Positions 8,882 through 61,100 of a stretch of DNA of 64,000 nt are shown here, one piece after another. The stretch spans positions 124,001 through 188,000 of the forward strand of contig RSEE01000010.1 in assembly GCA_003971905.1 (NCBI GenBank), given 5' to 3'. The position numbers were made by a program, and so were the translations under genes. The DNA comes from Moniliella sp. 'wahieum' (Eukaryota; Basidiomycota; Moniliellomycetes; Moniliellales; Moniliellaceae). Below the pieces are notes generated by a model. The model saw only the letters and a list, made by a program, of their open reading frames with translations, was not told where the DNA came from and did no database searches. Positions within the stretch are counted from its first letter, which is position 1; the number at the start of each line of letters is the position of its first letter.

Positions 8882-11525
8882 ATGCCGAGTCCTCTGCCGT
8901 TCGAAATTGTCTTCCAGGTCGCCACCACCGGGGTGCTCGACCCGCACGACCTGGTCCACATGTCGCGGTGCAGCAAAGGTACGTCTGTCTCCCTTGACAA
9001 GAAGGACTTGAAACCCGTGCCCTGGTTCCGTTTCTGACCGTGCTGAGGAGGGCAGCGTGGCACACCGCCTTGGACGGGGAGGTGATGTGGCATCGACTTG
9101 CGGTAAAGTTGCTCCATCTCCTTCACTTCGAATGGAGCTGTCGGATGCCGCTGTGCATGTTGGATTCGATACGCCCATTCCCCGCACATGGAAGGGGCTA
9201 GTGGTCGCAGCCGAGTTGCTGGAGGAAGAATTTGGTTGGACGCTGACTGGTCGTCCAATTTCGCGTACAACCCCCGAGCAAGATGGTTCTGCTTTGCTTC
9301 TGTCTGCTTCTGCTTCTGCTTTTGCTTTTGCTTCTGCTTCTGCTTCTGCTTCTGCTTCTGCTTCCCATGGGGTAGCCGAGTTGCTGGCTGAAGAATTTGT
9401 TTGGGCGCTGACTGGTCGTCCGATTTCGCGTACAACCCCCGAGCAAGATGGTTCTGCTTCTGCTTCTGCTTTTGCTTTTGCTTCTGCTTCTGCGTCTGCT
9501 TCTGCTTCTGCTTCTGCCCCTGCTTCTGCTTCTGCTTCTGCCCTTGCTTCTGCTTCTGCTTCTGCCCCTGCTTCTGCTTCTGCTTCTGCCCTGCTTCTGC
9601 TTCTGCTTCTGCCCTTGCTTCTGCTTCTGCTTCTGCCCCTGCTTCTGCTTCTGCTTCTGCTTCTGCTTCTGCTTCCCATGGGGTAGCCAACACGGAGGCG
9701 ATGCTTGTAACTGAAGAGACAGTCAAGCAACTGCCAAAGTTGACCCTCTTTCTTTGCCCTGTACTCAATTCGGTGCGATGCTGGCGTGCATTGAAATGAA
9801 CGAATCTTACCAAGGCGATTGTATGATTCCCACTTTAGAGGATCGAATTTGTCCAACTGGGGATGAGGAGGAGGAGGCCATCTCTCAGTACCGGCCCAAA
9901 CAGCCCGACGTCCACTTATGCGGAGAAGCATGGCCACGCAAAGGATTGTTTGTGGGGCGCTGGGCATCAGGTTCGTCCCTTTTCCTCCCTTGTGCATCTG
10001 CACATATGTATACGCCTCTGACGATCCATGATCCCGGTCACACCAGATTCGAATTACCAGGGCGACCGATGGCTCGTGTATAGAATGCATCAATGCCAAG
10101 AGAATCCTTATAAGCCCTCAAATGGCCGTATCGATGACACTGCCTATCGCACAGTGGCCATACCTATTGCGCAGGGTTCATTTGTGTATTGCCGAGAAAC
10201 AGGGGACATGCGTACATCCTGTGCGTATAGGGGTTGCCTCAACTGTTGTGGGGTAATGGTTGTATTGACGCTCCTCCTTTCCTTGCAGCCATTTACCGTT
10301 GGATCCTCTGCCCCACCAAGACAATTTGGCGAAGCTGCAGACGATCAACTGGGATACAGCTACGGTTGGAGAACCGCTTGAACTCAAGATCCCCAGCACG
10401 TGTCCCAATTCGTTCTACGTCGATGGACCATGGATTTATCTATGGACGTGCGATTATTCCAATCGCCAAGACGTGTGGCAGGTGCACAACCGATTCTCCG
10501 GCCCTAAGTGTCTCTACTCGCTCGAGGATCTTTTGGCTCTACAGAGTGGCAGTGACCCCAACGTGCCTGTCACCCACTTCCGGCTGGATGGAATCCTCTT
10601 GCCCGAGAGCACTGCTCATCTTGCGCACTATAAGCCCGATCAAGAGCAACCGCACGATCTGTTCTTCATCTCCTTTACGGCCTGCCCAGACTCGGAAAGC
10701 TGGGCTTTTCTCTTGGGCGAGAAGACCAGGGAGTCGGAGGATGGCTCAGAGCCATGCCGGACTCGTCTGGTCGTCGTGAAGAATTTCAAAGGCCTTTTTG
10801 CTTCGCATCAGTCGACGGCATCCCTCTGGGTTTTCACCGTGGACGTGGACTATCTCATCGAGTCAGACCATCACGATTACCACCGTGAGTATGTGACCAA
10901 TGATCCTGATCGAACGCTGTGCAGATTTGTGGCACCCGTTCGGCACCCTGCCTTGGCCGATGGTCGAGCCTTCCTTCCCTCGACCGCCTCTTGCTGGCGA
11001 TACACCGTGGATAAAGCGGGGCACGTGAGTTACACACTAATCACTCGGTTCATGGTGGACCATGCTCATATGATTAAAGTCGGGTGTCTTCAGATCAATC
11101 TGCTGGACTGGAAGCACGCTCGCTCCGCGTCCGACGTACGCGTCTTGGCTTCTTTGCCTCTCCGTCCCATCCGCCTCGACCAGGACGGCCCAGCCCGGTT
11201 GGTGGGGAAAGACCTCCGCGTGCCTGGTCCATTAAATTCCCCAACCAGTAAGATGCTCAACATCTTGCCCGGCGCCCTTGCGATGGGCTCATCGCTCTTA
11301 TCCTCCACGGGGCTGCTGGTCTTCCTCGATTCCCAATGGGACGACTTGCTCCACAGTGTTACTACAAACCTTCGCTTCTCGTATGCCTATTCTGGTTTTT
11401 CCGACCCGTCAGAGACCATTGAAGAGTATGCCAAGGAACTGGGTGAGGACTGGGACGCCCAGTTATCCATGGCCTTCCTGTGGGATTGGGGCCGACGCGC
11501 GCGCGATTGGTTGAAGGACCACTGA
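8882..11525 (+). CDS. F-box domain protein with internal hexanucleotide expansion
   Basis: The N-terminus 'MPSPLPFEIVFQVATTGVLD' followed by 'PHDLVHMSRCSK' and, after a 77-bp intron (8979-9055), 'AWHTALDGEVMWHRLAVK' reads as an F-box, the domain that docks substrate adaptors onto SKP1 in SCF ubiquitin ligases. The first exon is 97 bp and the splice restores the frame. Next comes a tandemly duplicated segment with serine/alanine-encoding repeats (see the repeat entry), then a long C-terminal part from about 9750 to the TGA at 11523-11525 with no domain I can name ('NSFYVDGPWIYLWTCDY' lies in it). Further introns are likely near 9970-10048 and 10205-10288, and one of 69 bp at 11025-11093 (GTGAGT...CTTCAG) whose removal keeps the frame. 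The frame changes around 9110-9130. The target of the F-box protein is unknown. Confidence 0.7.
9209..9684 (+). repeat. Tandem duplication with TTCTGC hexanucleotide arrays
   Basis: Two copies of one unit start with AGCCGAGTTGCTGG at 9209 and 9374, and a third start (AGCCAACACGG) follows at 9685. Each unit has a unique head (encoding 'AELLEEEFGWTLTGRPISR' in copy 1 and a near copy in copy 2) followed by an array of TTCTGC/TTTTGC/CCCTGC units, about 60 bp in copy 1 and about 220 bp in copy 2. Both copies end TTCCCATGGGGTAGCC. In the frame of the conserved head the array encodes serine-alanine repeats. Confidence 0.9.
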
Positions 11526-51089: not shown

Positions 51090-52810
51090 GCCCCACCACG
51101 ACTCGACGCTAGGATCCGACGAGATTGGAAGAGTGACAAATCAAGAGCCAGCTGGCGAGAGGAATCTGAGCCGAAAATGGGCTTGATGCGGGAAGTCTCT
51201 ACAGCCCCACCAGGATCCGGCGTGCGAGCGTGAGGTAGCGACCTACACTGGAGCGTTGAACCGTATACGGTAGGAGCTTGGTAAAATCATTCGCGGGGTT
51301 CTCGGTTCCAAGAACCTTGTGCCACAAAATGCGCCCCGAATCGACATGCTCGCGGAACCAATGGTTGCGAATGTCCACATGACGAAGGCGTCCAATGAAA
51401 CCAGGCCGAGAGATAATTGACAGGGCAACAGCCGAGTCGCTATAGAGATCCACCGGACAGTTGGAAGGTACTAGTTGAAGCTCGACCATGAGGTTACGAA
51501 TGCGGAGAGCGTCGCGGGCGCCCTCACTAATAGCCATCATCTCAGCTTCAGCGGGTCGAAATTGCCGTAGTGGTTGCTGGGCGCTGCGCCAGTGCACTAG
51601 GGCGCCAAAAACAAACACAGCGACCCCTGTTACCGACTTGCGTGTGACCCTGTCGCCGCCCCAATCGCTATCGGTAAATACGGCAATAGGAGGTGCCGTT
51701 CGATTGATCCTGAGACGCAGAGACCAATCCAATGTACCACGGAGGTAGCGGAGGACATGTTGTGCGGCGCTGCGGTGTGCAGCAGAGGGATCCTTGTTCC
51801 AACGACTGAGGAGATGTACGACAAATGACAGGTCGGGCCGGCAAGTCTGCGCGGCCCAGCTGAGGCTCTGCACAATCGACATATAGCGCTTATGCTCGGC
51901 GACAGTGACAGGGGCTTCGTCCGTGGACGTGGCGGGAGAGGTGTATCAGGATTGATAGGCAACGAACAGGGTTGCACTCGAGCATGTCGGTGCGGGCGAG
52001 TAAGGCTAACAGAAATGCACGCTGGTCGCAGTCAAAACCATCAGGGCGAGTAACATAGTGCACACCCAGCATCTTACTGAGTAACCTTTGTCGCCAATCT
52101 TGATGTTGAGACCGAGTTCGTCCATGAATGCGTCAAAAGCAGCTTGGGACGGGGCCATGGCCATTCCGTCATCACAGTATATTGCCAGCATGATGGTCGT
52201 ATTCGCTCGTTTGCGTATCCATACGTCCTGTTCTGTTACTGTCGAGCGGAAACCAATATCTCGTAGCTTGCTGACGAGGTGGCGGTGCCACGCAGCGCCG
52301 GAGGCTGCAAGGCCATAGAGGGACTTCTTGAGTCGCCAAACGTTTGCTTTGTCGGTGTGAGAAAACGATCGGGAGGCTTAACGTATACCTCATAGGGAAT
52401 GGGGGCATGGAGATATGCACCCTTGCAGTCAAAATAATATGCCTGGAGGCCTTGCGCTTACCTCCCACGGCTACGGTGCGAAAAGACTGATGTGCTGCGC
52501 CACTCGAGAATGTGAGGGCCTTGGGCAACTCACTTGTATCCTCCTGGTTTCCTTGAACCACAATAGGGCTTTCCGTTTGAGGAACATATTCTCTGGGGTG
52601 ACGCCAACACTGTAGACGGTGCGGGCACCCAAGATCTTCGTTCCGGCCGGAGGGCGTGGCACTTCTTCAAAGGCATCCATGGATCTGAGCCCGTCAAGCT
52701 CAATGTGTTCGGCCTGGCGCCACTGGGGCCACTCAGAGGTGGCCTTTGCTTCACGCTCGGTCCGAGGGGCAAGGGGCACACCGTCAGCAGTGGTGCCGAC
52801 GGTCGGGGGA

Positions 52811-55521
52811 CACAGCGGATTTCAAAAAGAGGTAAAAGATATCAGCGATGTCAGGGAGCTGACATCGGCGACGTTTTTGCATGGTTTTGAGGAAAATGAT
52901 GTCAGCGACGGCGCAAACGAGGTCGTTGATATCAATGATGTGCAGCGCGGGGGGCCAACTGCCGGCTACATGTGAAACTTTGCATCGTTTCAAATCGCAC
53001 CCGGCCACACCATTTCGTGTCTTCTAGCAAATGCTACCATCAGAACCACCTAGTCAACACGCGTCCTTCCTATACGCGCTCACGGTAGCTGGCCAACGCA
53101 GGTATTCGATTTCGCGTCGCACGGAAGGGTGTGCTCTACGGGGACATGCGTCTTCAGATTAGCCAGGGGAACATCGGCAATTGGTGGGCCAAGGTCTAGT
53201 CGTCAGGTAAATGGAAGCTCATTTCATGTGGACCAAAAGGCAGGCCATGCAGGACAACATTGTGCCCACTGATAGGGGTTTGGCTCATCAGGCGTCCATC
53301 CTGCGGCTAGTTCTGCTTGAGTACAGGGCAGCAGGGACGACTGGTGAAGCCCCGCTGAAGATAGGCTTTTGTTGGTCCTTCACATTGCTTTGACCCCGCA
53401 AACGAAAGTCATGAAAAAGTCTGTTGGGTTCTCCGAGCAAACCGACGAGATCATCGAGAGTCGTTCGTCCTGATAAATCCATAGTCGGACAGGCGCGTTT
53501 GAGAGACGGGTCTGAAACCGAAATCCGTCAAGCGAGACTGTCTCCAAGAGAGGTTAGGCTGTCGTATACGCGGACTTGACACTTCTTCACCATCTCTTCT
53601 TCTTGTTCCATCAGGTCTGTGTTCTCGTGAGCCAACCGTATGACCCATTCCACGTTGGTTCCGACAACAGTAAGGTGTTGGATGAGACCGGAGTTTGGGC
53701 CCCACTGGTCCGTGTAGTATACGTCCTTCATCGCAGTGTTCCGACTCGGCCTGATATTCATTGGACCAGATCAATTGTCGGTGGTCACAGAATGACCCTG
53801 ACCCCGTCGAACGGACCATAGCGAACGACACCAGTTCGACAATGAATACGGCTAACGACAGGTTTTACTTTTGCGGACCGGCATGCCCTTCAACTGTTCC
53901 TTGACGCAAAACTCCACCTTTTGCTTAATGAACGCGGTGTTGCGTGTGCGATCTGTCCCAATGTCCCGGAAGATTGTCATTGGAAGTCTCCGCTCATCAG
54001 CTGGCCGTCTGGCAAATAATAAAGGCGATGTGCAGAGTCACGTCGCGTCGCGCCAGCAGAGGCCCAGGGAAGTACCGATGCCCAGTAGCTCCCGCGATAA
54101 AGGTGACCGGCTAGAGATAAAGGTGACCGTGCCAACATACGCGCTTGTATAGTTAGAGCACAGTCGTCTCGCTTGGCAACACATCGCGAGCCGGATGGTG
54201 AAGTGGGATTCGCGTTAATCCATCCACCCCATCTTGCGGGTGGAGATCATCTGAGACATCACACATAGTCAACGTGGGAACGGTGAAAAGATATTATTTT
54301 CCCACTCCAGCGTGGAATGGTTCCAGCGTGGAACGGTGGATAAGGTGGCGACGCAGCAATAGCTAATCTCATCAGTGACAGGACCAGTTCGGCGAGCTCT
54401 CGCCGCATAGACCTTTTGGTAACCATAACTGGGTGATGTTGATGACGGCAATGAACGGATTCGTAAAGGGTGCGAACATATTGCTATCAATCGGGCCGTG
54501 GTGACGTATTATTGTTTCCGACAGATCCTCAAAATACAGAGATGGAGAGTGCAAAGGAGTGCGTCTTCTTGTGAGGCATCAGACTTGTGTGCGCGCCGAG
54601 TTGATCGCCGCTCTGGCTTGGATCCGGACTGAGGATCCGCTGTCGCTTCGCGTTCGGTAGGCGGGCCAGCCGACTGTGAGCAATGCACGTTTCAGCCATG
54701 TCCTCCATCCAAAAGCGTCTTCCACATCGCCATTTTGCGTGGGAGACCCAGGGGGCCATCCAGAGAAGGGCTGAAGGTGCAATTCAGGGGAGGTCACGTC
54801 TGGTATATTAATGTCAGATGTGGACCGGTAGAGATGGTGGCCAGCGCTCGCCGGTTAGAACCAGCTGAGATCGTACTTGCGCGCCGGGGCGCATGGTGCA
54901 CGAATGATGCCTGCTGCATTAGTGTCCGGTGTTGCAGCTTGGTTATTGGACGCGACCCGGTGTGCCCGGTGTGATCTTGGTGACGTCGGGCGTCCCTGTG
55001 TCGAAAAGCCGAGTACGGGCATAGACCACATCCGGTGCACATCCAATAATCCCTAACAATGCTGGACATGCTTCCAGCCAAATATAGCTGGAGCAGGAGT
55101 TGGAGGAGTGAGGGCACCAGTACATCGGTGCCGATACATTCAAGTCAGGTTACCCACTGCGAGCGTTATGAGAATGTGCCAATCGACTTTCACTGTTGGC
55201 CTGATTGCTTCAATCTGGCCAAACACTCAACTGAGTACGCAACCTTATTCGCCGATCATCGATCATCCAGCGACAGTTGCCTACACTTGTCAACACATGT
55301 TACACATATGTCACGCCGGGCGTAGATTGAAGTCCGGCGGAGCCTACGCGCGCCTTTCGCCTTACTAGTAACCCCATCCCCAGGTTGGTCATGCGGTCAG
55401 ATTCAATCTGGAAACGATAGTCTCCCGGTACCCTTTTGCATTATACCTTGCTACGTAGGTTGCCCCTGCGGCAACCGCCCTCCTTGTTTGCCCAGTCCCC
55501 CGTTCTTTCTCTATGCTGCAC
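52811..55521. other. Left part of the insertion, no gene recognised
   Basis: Apart from the left inverted end and its repeat, the stretch 52950-55520 shows only short frames. On the minus strand 53530-54000 has two coding-like pieces ('DVYYTDQWGPNSGLIQHLTV' and 'RDIGTDRTRNTAFIKQKVEF') that could be remnants of an element protein; I cannot name a family. Confidence 0.4.
52830..52925 (+). repeat. Degenerate subterminal repeat, left end
   Basis: GATATCAGCGATGTCAG, GACATCGGCGACG, GATGTCAGCGACGG and GATATCAATGATGTGCAGCG are variants of the same GAYRTC-motif found in the right-end minisatellite. The left set ends GATGTGCAGCGCG and the right set ends GACGTGCAGCGCG, in the same orientation. Confidence 0.65.
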
Positions 55522-55637
55522 AGCCTTGCCACACTTGCAGCCCCGCCTCTGCTATACGCCCAGAGGCCTCTCCTTGTCCCTAGCCCCGCTCAGACCCTGG
55601 CACCAATCAGCCCAAGCGTGTAACTATCGTGAGTCAC
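55522..55637 (-). repeat. Dispersed repeat, copy B (inverted relative to copy A)
   Basis: This is the reverse-complement match to 44654-44762. It sits inside the insertion, about 11 kb from copy A, which lies outside the Copia element. Confidence 0.8.
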
Positions 55638-55952
55638 CTTATAGGATCTCCCCATGGATTGTACCACTTAACCACCCCCGGGCCCCCTGGCAGCGCCCAC
55701 CCTTACACTGCCTGGTGCAGAGAATGGTGGGCGCAGCTTTTTCCCTGCAGCAAAGCGCCCCAGTGGTTCTTCAGTTAGGACCCTGGCTATCCAATTCCGG
55801 CCAGGGGCAAAAAGGACTTTCCTAGTGCGTTGTATGGAGCCCCCGCATGTGAGTGGCGCAATCTCCTCTACCCCCATACTGTAGCCCACACTTGACAAAA
55901 AGAGCCATCCAGCCCCCCTGGTCCTGCCTCTTTCCTCGCACACCCCACCAGC

Positions 55953-57746
55953 ATGGCTCGCCGCGGTTCAAACAGAGTAAATGCAAAAGCCCACCCAGGC
56001 AATGCTCACGTGAACACCTCTTGCGGACGCAGCAACATCGCCGGTGCCGCCCACACCCGTACCGCGAACAATAAGCGAGGTCGCCAGGCAGCCGAAATGG
56101 ACGAATCGGACATGGACGAGCCTGCCCCCAACCGGACTCGCCGGCCCGCCTTCACCTGACGGTCCCTGAGACAGCAACACGACGATGAAGACGCGCAGGC
56201 AAATGGTCCGGAAGCGTCGATCAAAATGACGCAAGCGATCCACAAGATCACCCCCTTGCCCCTGAGGGCGTGCGGGATGCCATGGACCAACATGATGGGG
56301 AACCCTGGCTGCAAGCGCTTCAAAGTCTGCGTGCTGAACTTAGGAACGACGTCAACGCCATACACCAGGAGTGAAGTCCGCGCCACCAGGAGTGAATTCC
56401 CCGCCGCCCTCCAACAACAACAGAACGATACATCAACTAGGTTGGATCTGATTTCCGATCTGGCCTTGCGTCGCGAGCACGACGAGATGGACCGCTTTGG
56501 AGACTTGAGACGCACTGTGATGCGTCACGACACGGACATCAATGACCTTAATGACCGAGTCCGCAACCCGGACAATGCGGCCGACGTGCAACACAACGCG
56601 GTTGAGCGGGTCAGTATCACCACAGGATCATATACCACAGTATCACCGCCCCCTCATGCACACAAAAAGCACTCTCACTGACCTAACTTACATATGTTCT
56701 CTTTGCGTCTGACAGCGATACTTGATCAACGACCTCGTCTGGGTTTGTCTCCTGTTCAAGGCACCCTGGAAGGGCCAGCGAATGGCCGACTTCGTTCGTA
56801 AGTTCGCCAGAGAGCACGTTACTGATGGTGGTCTAGAGGCCACCGCTCTCGAGATCAACCCGACTAGACCAGCGTTGAACAGGGACACAGACCGCTACAT
56901 CCAGAGGCGGGTAACGCTCAACAAATGCTATTTGAAAGAGGTGCGTTAACCCAAACGCCGAAGCCATCTATTACTAACAAATAACACATCGTCCAGTTGC
57001 CGGAGAGCATGCACCGTACCGATCAAGGAAACGGAACGCGCACAATTGAAGACTTTCAGGCTGAGTTCGTGCGTCATAGGTTTCCCGTCTACTTTCGCAG
57101 CCTCTCCCCGGGAGAGCTCACTGTCGCCAAGGAGCGCGTCCGAATCCTGGTACGTACTGGCCCCGCCTTTTCACGCGTTGCTCTCCTCGCAATATGGCCA
57201 CAAAACTTATCTCTCACCCGTTCTCATCAAAAGCGCTTCTGTTGCTATGCACCGAACGACATTGACTTCCGGACGGAAATGGATCGTGTCTCACAACATC
57301 GCAACTTCCCTGACCCATCTGCCCTGTGCACCCTCTTGCTCAACCGGAATCTGAACAGCGGCAGGCGCTGCGATGACATATTCAGTGCCATCACTGTCTC
57401 TTCGTCCGATCATAAGTACGTCGCCACCCCGTTGTCGTCCAGCAGGTCATCTGACTTTTTTCACACATCTCGCCCCGCAAGCTATCTACTGGGCTGGACA
57501 AGTGCATGGGAGAATTTCGAGGGCATTGCGGACACGCATCTTCCGCAAGGTAACCCTGAAATTTGTACTGCCTGGCATGCGACCCGTGCAGAAATCACCC
57601 ACCTCCGTCACATCGCAGTAGCCCGGGCACAAATAACAGACGAAGAGGATGCAGGGGACATCGAAGGCACTGCAGTCAACCTCTTTGACGCAGAGGGCAC
57701 AGATCGGGACGACGACCGCACAGACGACTCTGAGACTGAAGAGTAA
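55953..57746 (+). CDS. Intron-bearing gene of unknown family inside the insertion
   Basis: I do not recognise this protein. ATG 55953 starts 'MARRGSNRVNAKAHPGNAHV', a basic head, then an acidic 'MDESDMDEPAPN' stretch. A TGA at 56157 interrupts the frame, which reopens in phase, so either a small intron or a real stop lies there. A helical part follows ('LDLISDLALRREHDEMDRFG', 'VMRHDTDINDLNDRVRNPDN'). The intron 56610-56715 joins 'AVER' to 'RYLINDLVWVCLLFKAPWKG'. The intron 56941-56996 (56 bp, with a perfect TACTAAC branch site) joins 'LKE' to 'LPESMHRTDQGNG'. Further GTACGT donors at about 57151 and 57416 suggest two more introns. The C-terminus is acidic ('DRDDDRTDDSETEE') and stops at 57744-57746. 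Conserved splice signals argue for a recently functional gene. It could be an element protein or captured cargo. Confidence 0.6.
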
Positions 57747-57944
57747 TTTGGCGGCTATACATTCCAAAGACCTCTCAATGGCAAGCCCCCAAGTCCATAT
57801 TGACCCATCGCAATGCAAAAAGTACCCTCGAAGACGATTGCACTGCATTCGATGGCGCTAGAATGAGTAGTAGTATAAAATGTAATACCAATAGTAACCC
57901 AGGGAGAGCGAGCATAGGAGAATCAGATTCGTCAGATACGTCGC

Positions 57945-58195
57945 CCAGGGCACGCACGTCAATGACGTTTCTGACGTCCAAGGGGGTGACGTCGGCGACG
58001 TTTCTGATGTTCAAGGGGGTGACGTCGGCGACGTTTCTGACGTTCAAGGGGGTGACGTCGGCGACATATCTGACGTTCAAGGGGATGACATCGAGGACAT
58101 AACTGACCTGCAGGGGGATGACATCGAGGACATATCTGACGTTCAGGGTGGTGACATCGGCGACGTCACTGACGTGCAGCGCGCTGACAGAATTG
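57945..58195 (+). repeat. 33-bp minisatellite, right end of the insertion
   Basis: About seven units of 33 bp with consensus close to GACGTTTCTGACGTTCAAGG plus GGGTGACGTCGGC. In one plus-strand frame each unit encodes DVSDVQGGDVG; later units vary to DIEDISDVQGD. The array follows the gene's stop by about 200 bp and ends about 55 bp before the inverted end. Confidence 0.9.
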
Positions 58196-61100
58196 TCTCA
58201 CCCACGGCAAATTACTCCTCTGGCCTTTTTATATCAAAAACATAAATGATGTCTTTTGGTGATCCGCTGTGGAGGGATGCGGAAACGGCGTTGCCGGCGG
58301 GGAATGGCTTTCTTTTTCGGCCTTGGTGTAAGGGATGCGGTGGCAGGATCAGGGGAAGAAACAGTAATAGTAGGGGGGATTGGGTGGGACAAAGGGGGAT
58401 GACGGGCGGTGCGCGCATGGCCCGTTGGGCTCCAATCGGGATCAAGCTCAGCTGGCGGCTCATCCGTCAAGGGAGGCGCATGCGCATCCTTGGGTTGATA
58501 GAAATCAGGGGGGTGACGCGCCCGAGCCGGATTGCGACGGGGGGAGCTTCAGCCCCACCAGGTGTAGAAACTTCAGCCCCACCAGGTGTATTATCCAGAC
58601 GGTCACGAAGCCCATCCGGTGGCGTACCCGGCAACGATTGGGCCTGGCGTTTCCCAGCCCGGGGTTTGTGGGATCCCACATGACGTCGGTGCACCACGCC
58701 CTGTACGAGCAGTGGCCGTCTTCTGTGATAAACTCAAATTCGTATCCCTTGGAGCCGAGCGGATCGAATCCGACTAGCATGCCAGGGCGGGCGCGCGGCG
58801 CGGCGCGGTGGCCGCGCTCGGGACCTAACAAAGTACACCAGCCGGCCGCACCCCAGGGTGCCCCAAAATAAGAGCTGCGTGGGAGGGGGCGGTCGTGATA
58901 GCGTTCAAATGGTGAGGGGGCGCCAATGCGGCCGACACACTAACGTTGGCATACAAAGCTGCCGCGACAGCGGCGTCAGCCCAGTACTGAGACGGTGCGC
59001 GGGCGCCGGCAAGGAGGACGCGGGTACGCTCCTGTATAGTGCGAGCGGCGCGCTCGGCGTGGCCATTCTGCTGGGAGGTGTAGGGGGTGGTGGTGGTGTG
59101 CTGGATCGGTGCCATGACCGGCAGCAGTGAGGAGGTGCGGGACACGGGAAAACTCAGTACCGCCATCGGTGTGGAGACGGAACTGGCGCCGTGGCGGGTG
59201 AGGAGGCGGCGCTCCTCGAGGAGAATTAAGTTGGCTAGTGCCATTGCAGCGTCGCTCTTGCGCACCAGCGGAATGGCCCAGAGATAGCCGGTGCAGTCGT
59301 CGACTACGACAAGTAAATTGCGCTCACCCTTCAGCCCCGTCGGCCAATCTGTCACTAGATCGGCATGCAAGTGCGCCAGTGGGGCAGCTGCACGTGCCGT
59401 GTGGCTCTCAGGGAACGGGCGTCGGGTGCCCCGCCCCGCCGCGCACGCCTGACAAACGCAGGCCGCGTCGGCCTCGGCTGCATGGGCCTGGGTGGAAGTG
59501 ATGCGTTGCGCAACTGGCCCCGTGGCCGTGAGGCGGGGAAGCTGGCGCCAACCAACATGGCCATGGCGGGCATGAGCAGCCAGTATCCGGGCATAGTCGG
59601 CCACGGCGGCACGGGCGTGGGCTTGAATGGGGACGTTGGGGACGTCGCAATCAACCACATAGCCATTAGCGGTACGGTCGTAGCGAGCAACAATTGCGGG
59701 ATCGCTATGGATCACAGCGCCTTGGCGGTGTGCAAGGAACTCTACTCGATGACCAGCGGCATTAGCCTGCGGTACAGAGAGTAAGTCATGGTCCAATTGG
59801 GGAACAAGCAAGCAGTACAAATCAAGGACACATTCAGTTTGGACTGTGGAAGCCGGGAGGCGGACCCGCTTCACCCCACAGCCTGTCACCGCAAGCTTCC
59901 TAGACGCGCCAGCCAACTCAACCCCCCAGTCGCTGGCTCGAGGAAAATGAAACCCTCGGGCGAGCGAACCATGCTGGGCGTCGCGCCGCTGTCAACTACC
60001 AGCTTGTGGAGCGCAAATGCAGTGGTGGGTGGTGGCGAAGACTGCGGATCAGGAGGCGGAAAAGAAACGGGGGGTAGGCCTTGCTTGCTCACGGTAGGGG
60101 CAATAGGCTCTTCGAATGTCGGAGCTGATGGTAAGGCCAGAGACGAGGGTAGTAGGGAGGCATATAGGTGCCGGGTGAATTGGTGAATACACCGGGGTAG
60201 TTCCTCGGGCGTGGGCGTAACGGCTCACTGCTGTGGCCGGATACGAAAAATTGGAATGATTTAAGTTGCGCGACGTCGACATGTTCTTCAACTCCGGATG
60301 CAGCGACCAGCATTGTGCCTCTACATGTATTCCGTTGGGATGAAGACGACAGGGGCCAGTGCGCTCCGCGCGCGCGCCCTTTCTCTCTGTGCGAAGAAAC
60401 AGTTTTGGTGACGAGAAATGTATCCTCAATGTCTAGGAACTGCAGTGCTTGGCTCCGGGTTTTGCCCTGGAGCTGTTGCTCTTTCACGCGATTTGGCTCG
60501 GGGCAGCTATTGGCAAGAACGCTCCAAGCACGAACACTGAGCGGGAGTCCAATCATTTCGCCGATGCCCACGATCCGTTCGATGCGGGCAAGGAACATGC
60601 GCGCCGTCTCCTGTGCCGCAGGCTTAAGGGCGTCGAGACGGGAACTGATATCACTCTCAAGTTTGACTTGGCTGGGCCGATTGCGCTCGCACATGTTCCG
60701 GTACATGCCCGAGGCCGAGCCGCAGGCAACGTGACTCTGCGTGGTCGAGTCACATTTGGTTAAAAGGACATACTCGAGCCTCCTGTCGATCAGGGCTTCC
60801 TCCGGAGAAGAAGGACCGTTGACGACTAGGTCCAGGAACTGGTATGCCGAGAGCTGGTTGCGCGTATCATAATCATAATCTAGCCAATGTGTCGTTCCGA
60901 GTTCCCTGAGGGCAAACTGTTTCCTTTAGCCAGCGCCCTGATCATCTCCTCTTCCATGGAACGTGTCTGAGAAGGGATTTCGGAAATCATCATCGCAGTA
61001 CTACTTTGAATGCCGTACTTGCGGACAAATAAGGGTACTCGTGCGTGAATGTAGGTTGTGAATTGCATCTTGTGCCTGTTCCGTGGACCACTCGGGGTGG

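Follow-up and report, generated by a model that had tools for sequence, protein, structure and literature searches.

The question raised by this locus is whether the block at 52811-58271 is a mobile element and, if so, to which kind it belongs and whether a gene inside it could have moved it. The window, i.e., the whole stretch of 64,000 nucleotides (C10:124001-188000 in a genome of 69.5 Mb in 223 contigs), was first described from its letters, and this first-pass annotation proposed a mobile element with 20-bp inverted ends starting CACAG. Such ends are present, 17 of 20 positions matching between 52811-52830 and 58252-58271. With 18 inverted pairs listed in a 7-kb stretch, a 20-bp inverted repeat is unremarkable by itself; the ends of the element are certain because copies across the genome share them, not because of the repeat as such. 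The block is a real mobile element with CACAG...CTGTG ends and is inserted into a minus-strand Ty1/copia retrotransposon. The element and its host comprise the following features:

52811-58271, plus strand: whole transposon copy, 5461 bp (same-edged copies and 12 uninterrupted sites)
52811-52830, plus strand: left terminal inverted repeat, CACAGCGGATTTCAAAAAGA (inverted-repeat search and genome end-pattern matches)
58252-58271, minus strand: right terminal inverted repeat, CACAGCGGATCACCAAAAGA (inverted-repeat search and genome end-pattern matches)
52809-52810, no strand: left copy of the 2-bp target duplication, GA (uninterrupted sites and end-pair survey)
58272-58273, no strand: right copy of the 2-bp target duplication, GA (uninterrupted sites and end-pair survey)
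51202-52808, minus strand: host Ty1/copia, reverse transcriptase/RNase H side, interrupted by the transposon (RVT_2 and uninterrupted sites)
58274-59916, minus strand: host Ty1/copia, integrase side (weak rve match and uninterrupted sites)

The host element is recognized in Pfam by RVT_2 at 52009-52377 (45 bits, above cut-off) and, on its integrase side, by a weak rve match (17 bits, below cut-off). The 300-bp left flank of the block matches 14 further loci in the genome, 12 of which were read across the insertion site, the two others being a partial match (C148) and one that is only 78% identical (C34). All 12 are uninterrupted, with a flank overlap of exactly 2 bp in 11 of them and of 4 bp in the diverged L062. 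The edges therefore lie at 52811 and 58271, exactly where the first-pass annotation had placed them, and the duplication is GA; the 12 sites are in keeping with these edges.

With the whole block as query, at least 86 matching stretches were found across the genome, a lower bound, as scores were computed for 40 of 448 candidates. Besides the block, three copies are 96-97% identical and near full length, three further ones are at 93%, and a second subfamily stands at about 84-85% identity to the block. The ends of the family read CACAGCGGAT, and the end pattern CACAGCGGATYWVMRAAAKA, allowing up to two mismatches, has 74 matches in the genome vs. 3 for a reversed control. From the list of end-pattern matches, 17 facing pairs less than 7 kb apart, including the block, were picked by eye (spacing 171 to 6797 bp), and all 17 were inspected. 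They carry CACAG..CTGTG termini, from which four pairs (L002, L005, L048, and L049) deviate by a single base. A 2-bp direct repeat adjoins the ends in 16 of the 17, L002 being counted among these only by taking the last base of one end as mutated and L005 being the single pair lacking a 2-bp match. The duplications are GA, TG, AA, TT, TA, TA, TT, CA, TG, TA, CC, TC, TA, TA, AA, and TA, i.e., TA in 6 of 16 and other dinucleotides in 10 of 16, copies with just one recognized end being left out of the count. The original proposal stood or fell with other copies sharing both ends, and these pairs supply them.

Regarding short copies, six were read. Five (171, 310, 482, 516, and 759 bp) arose by deletion and retain both ends, of which the shortest has about 64 bp on the left and about 129 bp on the right; shrinkage may have come before or after insertion. 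The sixth (L051, C111:102747-104126, 1380 bp) keeps both ends around a foreign interior, which resembles other repeated DNA in L016, L021, and L026 and not the block. Incomplete copies are also numerous: 40 right-end matches were scored, out of 51 candidates, vs. 25 places with left-end sequence, and many copies (on C64, C95, C106, C175, and others) have a right end with no recognized left end. In two pairs of copies, each pair looks like one insertion duplicated together with its surroundings: L013 and L025 have a common flank (95% identity), while L019 matches L020 at 96% over 3.7 kb.

Inside the ends, the element carries repeats on both sides:

57964-58178, plus strand: right subterminal 33-bp minisatellite, about 6 units, TGAYRTCGGCGAYRT motif (TRF and motif count)
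52837-52941, no strand: left subterminal variants of the TGAYRTCGGCGAYRT motif in both orientations (motif count; repeat families D2 and D4, pair I7)

A 33-bp minisatellite had been announced about 55 bp from the right end; the array is there, but its distance from the end is about 93 bp. The degenerate units of the same motif claimed inside the left end are present at 52851-52879 and 52923-52949. Allowing up to three mismatches, the motif has 24 matches in the block vs. a mean of 1.24 and a maximum of 6 in 200 mononucleotide shuffles. Variants are concentrated at both ends, 19 of the 24 lying within the first 131 or the last 334 bp; since the motif was taken from the array, the right-end matches are circular and only seven left-end matches are independent.

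Taken by its structure, the family probably consists of decayed, non-autonomous DNA transposons that moved by cut and paste and belong to the CACTA-like (CMC/CMCT) type. Of the features by which CACTA/CMC elements are recognized, terminal inverted repeats of the CA(C)..(G)TG type, a target duplication within the 2-5 bp range (2 bp in 16 of 17), and subterminal repeats at both ends, where the left-end matches are independent of the source of the motif, can be found here; the Tnp2 (Transposase_21)-type transposase expected of autonomous members was not seen in the copies scanned. The likeness to CACTA elements proposed at the outset thus holds up, with CACTA-like ends and subterminal repeats in an element that is apparently non-autonomous. 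Counting against it are ends that start with CACAG and not CACTA, the failure to find a transposase with the family ends in the copies scanned, the distance of the Tnp2 genes found from any listed end, the 3-bp duplications of fungal EnSpm families and the different ends of Plavaka, the two weak pairs L005 and L002, and the origin of the motif in the array itself. Canonical CACTA (EnSpm) elements in the strict sense have CACTA ends and 3-bp duplications, vs. CACAG ends and 2-bp duplications here. With no transposase found between these ends, membership in CMCT is one that we infer.

dSpm is a defective derivative of the CACTA/EnSpm transposon. The present family shares CAC..GTG ends, asymmetric subterminal repeats, deletion derivatives, and short duplications with CACTA/EnSpm (CMC) elements and their defective derivatives, such as Tgm of soybean (PMC2613891); unlike CACTA/EnSpm, it has CACAG in place of CACTA, 2-bp instead of 3-bp duplications, and no Tnp2 gene found inside. 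A survey describes CA..TG ends and duplications of 2-5 bp for most CMCT elements (PMC12730594). The fungal EnSpm families reported there, similar in their CAC..GTG ends, differ by duplicating 3 bp, and PlavakaA and some PlavakaB elements have 2-bp duplications as here, but Plavaka ends are TGT..ACA or CATCA..TGATG (PMC12730594), from which the present termini differ. KDZ elements (Kyakuja, Zisupton) duplicate 7-8 bp (PMC12730594) vs. 2 bp in this family. SmTRC1 is a CACTA relative with 2-bp direct repeats (in 7 of 14 copies), and some of its copies lie inside LTR retrotransposons, like the copy in the window; unlike it, SmTRC1 has ends beginning CCC and encodes a Transposase_21 protein (PMC1636069).

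It could also be hypothesized that the family belongs, as a non-autonomous member, to a different superfamily of cut-and-paste elements that duplicates 2 bp, e.g., as a relative of PHIS/Harbinger or of ESTA, and that its likeness to CACTA arose by chance. This is unlikely. PHIS and ESTA lineages do have TA or 2-bp duplications (PMC12730594), and TA makes up 6 of the 16 duplications; the other 10 are not TA. ESTA duplicates TA only (PMC12730594). Subterminal repeats at both ends together with CA..TG ends also fit CMCT better.

If the CACTA-like reading is right, the cutting of the ends and the insertion would be the work of a transposase that an autonomous relative provided in trans. A helper or the transposase may bind at the subterminal repeats; in CACTA elements, subterminal repeats are bound by TNPA-type proteins, and movement occurs in trans (PMC2613891). 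The interior readings described below could be relics of the genes of an autonomous ancestor. Rather improbable is a more specific proposal, namely a separate lineage of the CMCT clade with CACAG..CTGTG ends, 2-bp duplications, and 33-bp subterminal repeats with a TGACGTC-like core, the autonomous form of which would carry an undescribed transposase as well as a pair of genes in divergent orientation, one of them with a Cys/His finger. If an autonomous partner sharing these ends came to light, it would settle which transposase lineage is responsible here for 2-bp duplications combined with CACAG ends. The CACTA-like, non-autonomous family is new as a family only and of an ordinary kind; no publication naming it was found in the literature searched, and it may, on weak evidence, be undescribed. 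Being defined by its ends, it is a clean aid to annotating the genome; without them, the block would be taken for an orphan gene next to a minisatellite.

The absence of a visible known transposase, noted in the first-pass annotation, was borne out by Pfam scans of the window copy and of other copies. Neither the stop-free open reading frames of both strands nor the minus-strand read-throughs (three frames in the window copy, L010, L006, L013, and L025; one frame in L004) gave a transposase in the element. The plus strand was scanned as stop-free open reading frames and, beyond these, just in an extra segment of L017. This 1557-bp segment (L017 2445-4001, C31:33444-35000) occurs in that copy only, at the position of the minus-strand Cys/His reading described below, and several stretches of its minus strand are open; just its last ~85 bp recur elsewhere (C8 and C77). 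As a candidate for the missing transposase core it was rejected, giving no Pfam match above cut-off in six frames. Transposase genes of the Tnp2 (CACTA) type do exist in the genome, one on C17 (52.6 bits, above cut-off; L064 4431-5483) with a relative on C62, and Tnp2 matches below cut-off lie on C34, C127, and C44. None of these Tnp2 genes lies within 60 kb of a listed family end, and the two Tnp2 regions read, on C17 and C127, have no DNA in common with the element beyond chance. The weak Tnp2-like gene of C127 (L065, below cut-off) was also rejected as a partner, with no common DNA and translated matches at chance level. Profile searches of the genome for Plavaka (PF18759) and KDZ (PF18758) gave no match, the control being silent in both cases, and an Rfam scan of the window gave no informative result for the element.

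The interior of the element contains two readings:

55953-57746, plus strand: relic reading of a spliced gene, composite of 493 aa, broken here, of no known family
54794-55117, minus strand: relic reading with a Cys/His stretch (C2H2-like, our label), function putative

The minus-strand reading lies in the left half of the element and is decayed. Its Pfam matches are all below cut-off; judged by layout alone, it may be the N-terminus of a transposase.

What had been called the one good gene of the block was not confirmed as such: 55953-57746 needs several introns to splice to about 493 residues, and its exon 1 has an in-frame TGA and small indels in the window copy. GT..AG-like introns can be found in several copies, and exon matches number 126 genome-wide, many of them holding stops. 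The composite protein has no Pfam match above cut-off, and its comparison with the PDB gave nothing better than E 0.8, with matches only at E about 0.9. A protein database search with the composite and the left reading gave no match, a miss that says little as the genome's own Tnp2 control was equally empty.

With regard to selection, variable sites among copies are nearly even over the codon positions of 55953-57746 in window coordinates, where the phase of exon 1 is blurred after about 56150 by the indels of the window copy. In these coordinates, subfamily comparison has exon 1 leaning mildly to third positions in 3 of 4 group comparisons and exons 4-5 leaning to second positions in some. 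With CpG-type sites excluded, exon 2 has 24/52 at third positions vs. 15/42 and 11/42, and a first codon scan gave ratios up to about 1.6 (higher in single small windows) on the two strands alike and in frames that conflict. Counted along the L017 frames that are free of stops, variable sites by codon position are 80/175, 80/175, and 62/174 in exon 1 and 120/269, 129/269, and 121/269 in exons 3-5, i.e., no third-position excess in either. In each of the 6 group comparisons made in the same frames (exon 1 and exons 3-5), third positions have the fewest subfamily differences. Within exons 3-5, such differences are enriched at second positions (p 0.008 to 0.045, uncorrected), e.g., 14/250, 22/258, and 6/259 between A and C (p 0.008, uncorrected). 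This second-position bias argues against the L017 frame, and another frame is possible.

Because it is broken, matches nothing known, and has no third-position excess, 55953-57746 is probably a relic, a reading without visible selection, and the earlier suggestion that it could be the protein of the element is not supported. That its product is a new transposase or helper moving the family is very improbable, even with the 126 exon matches, the recurrence of the reading in diverged copies with plausible splice sites, and the third-position lean of exon 2. Against these stand the broken window copy, the lack of a third-position excess in the L017 frames (exon 1 and exons 3-5), the third-position minimum in all six subfamily comparisons, and the empty Pfam and PDB results.

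A retroelement or segmental repeat instead of a DNA transposon, to which the many right-end-only copies with varying left edges and the two copy pairs resembling segmental duplicates might point, is scarcely conceivable given the inverted ends, the 17 facing pairs (16 with 2-bp duplications), the exact uninterrupted sites, and the lack of a reverse transcriptase in Pfam scans of open reading frames and minus-strand read-throughs, and it is already refuted for copies with both ends.

Elsewhere in the window, matches to Rtf2 and to steryl acetyl hydrolase can be found, which together with a Ty1/copia reverse transcriptase suggest a fungal genome. A second Ty1/copia reverse transcriptase lies at 540-1784 on the plus strand (RVT_2, 109 bits), and long TTCTGC hexanucleotide arrays occupy 9287-9675.
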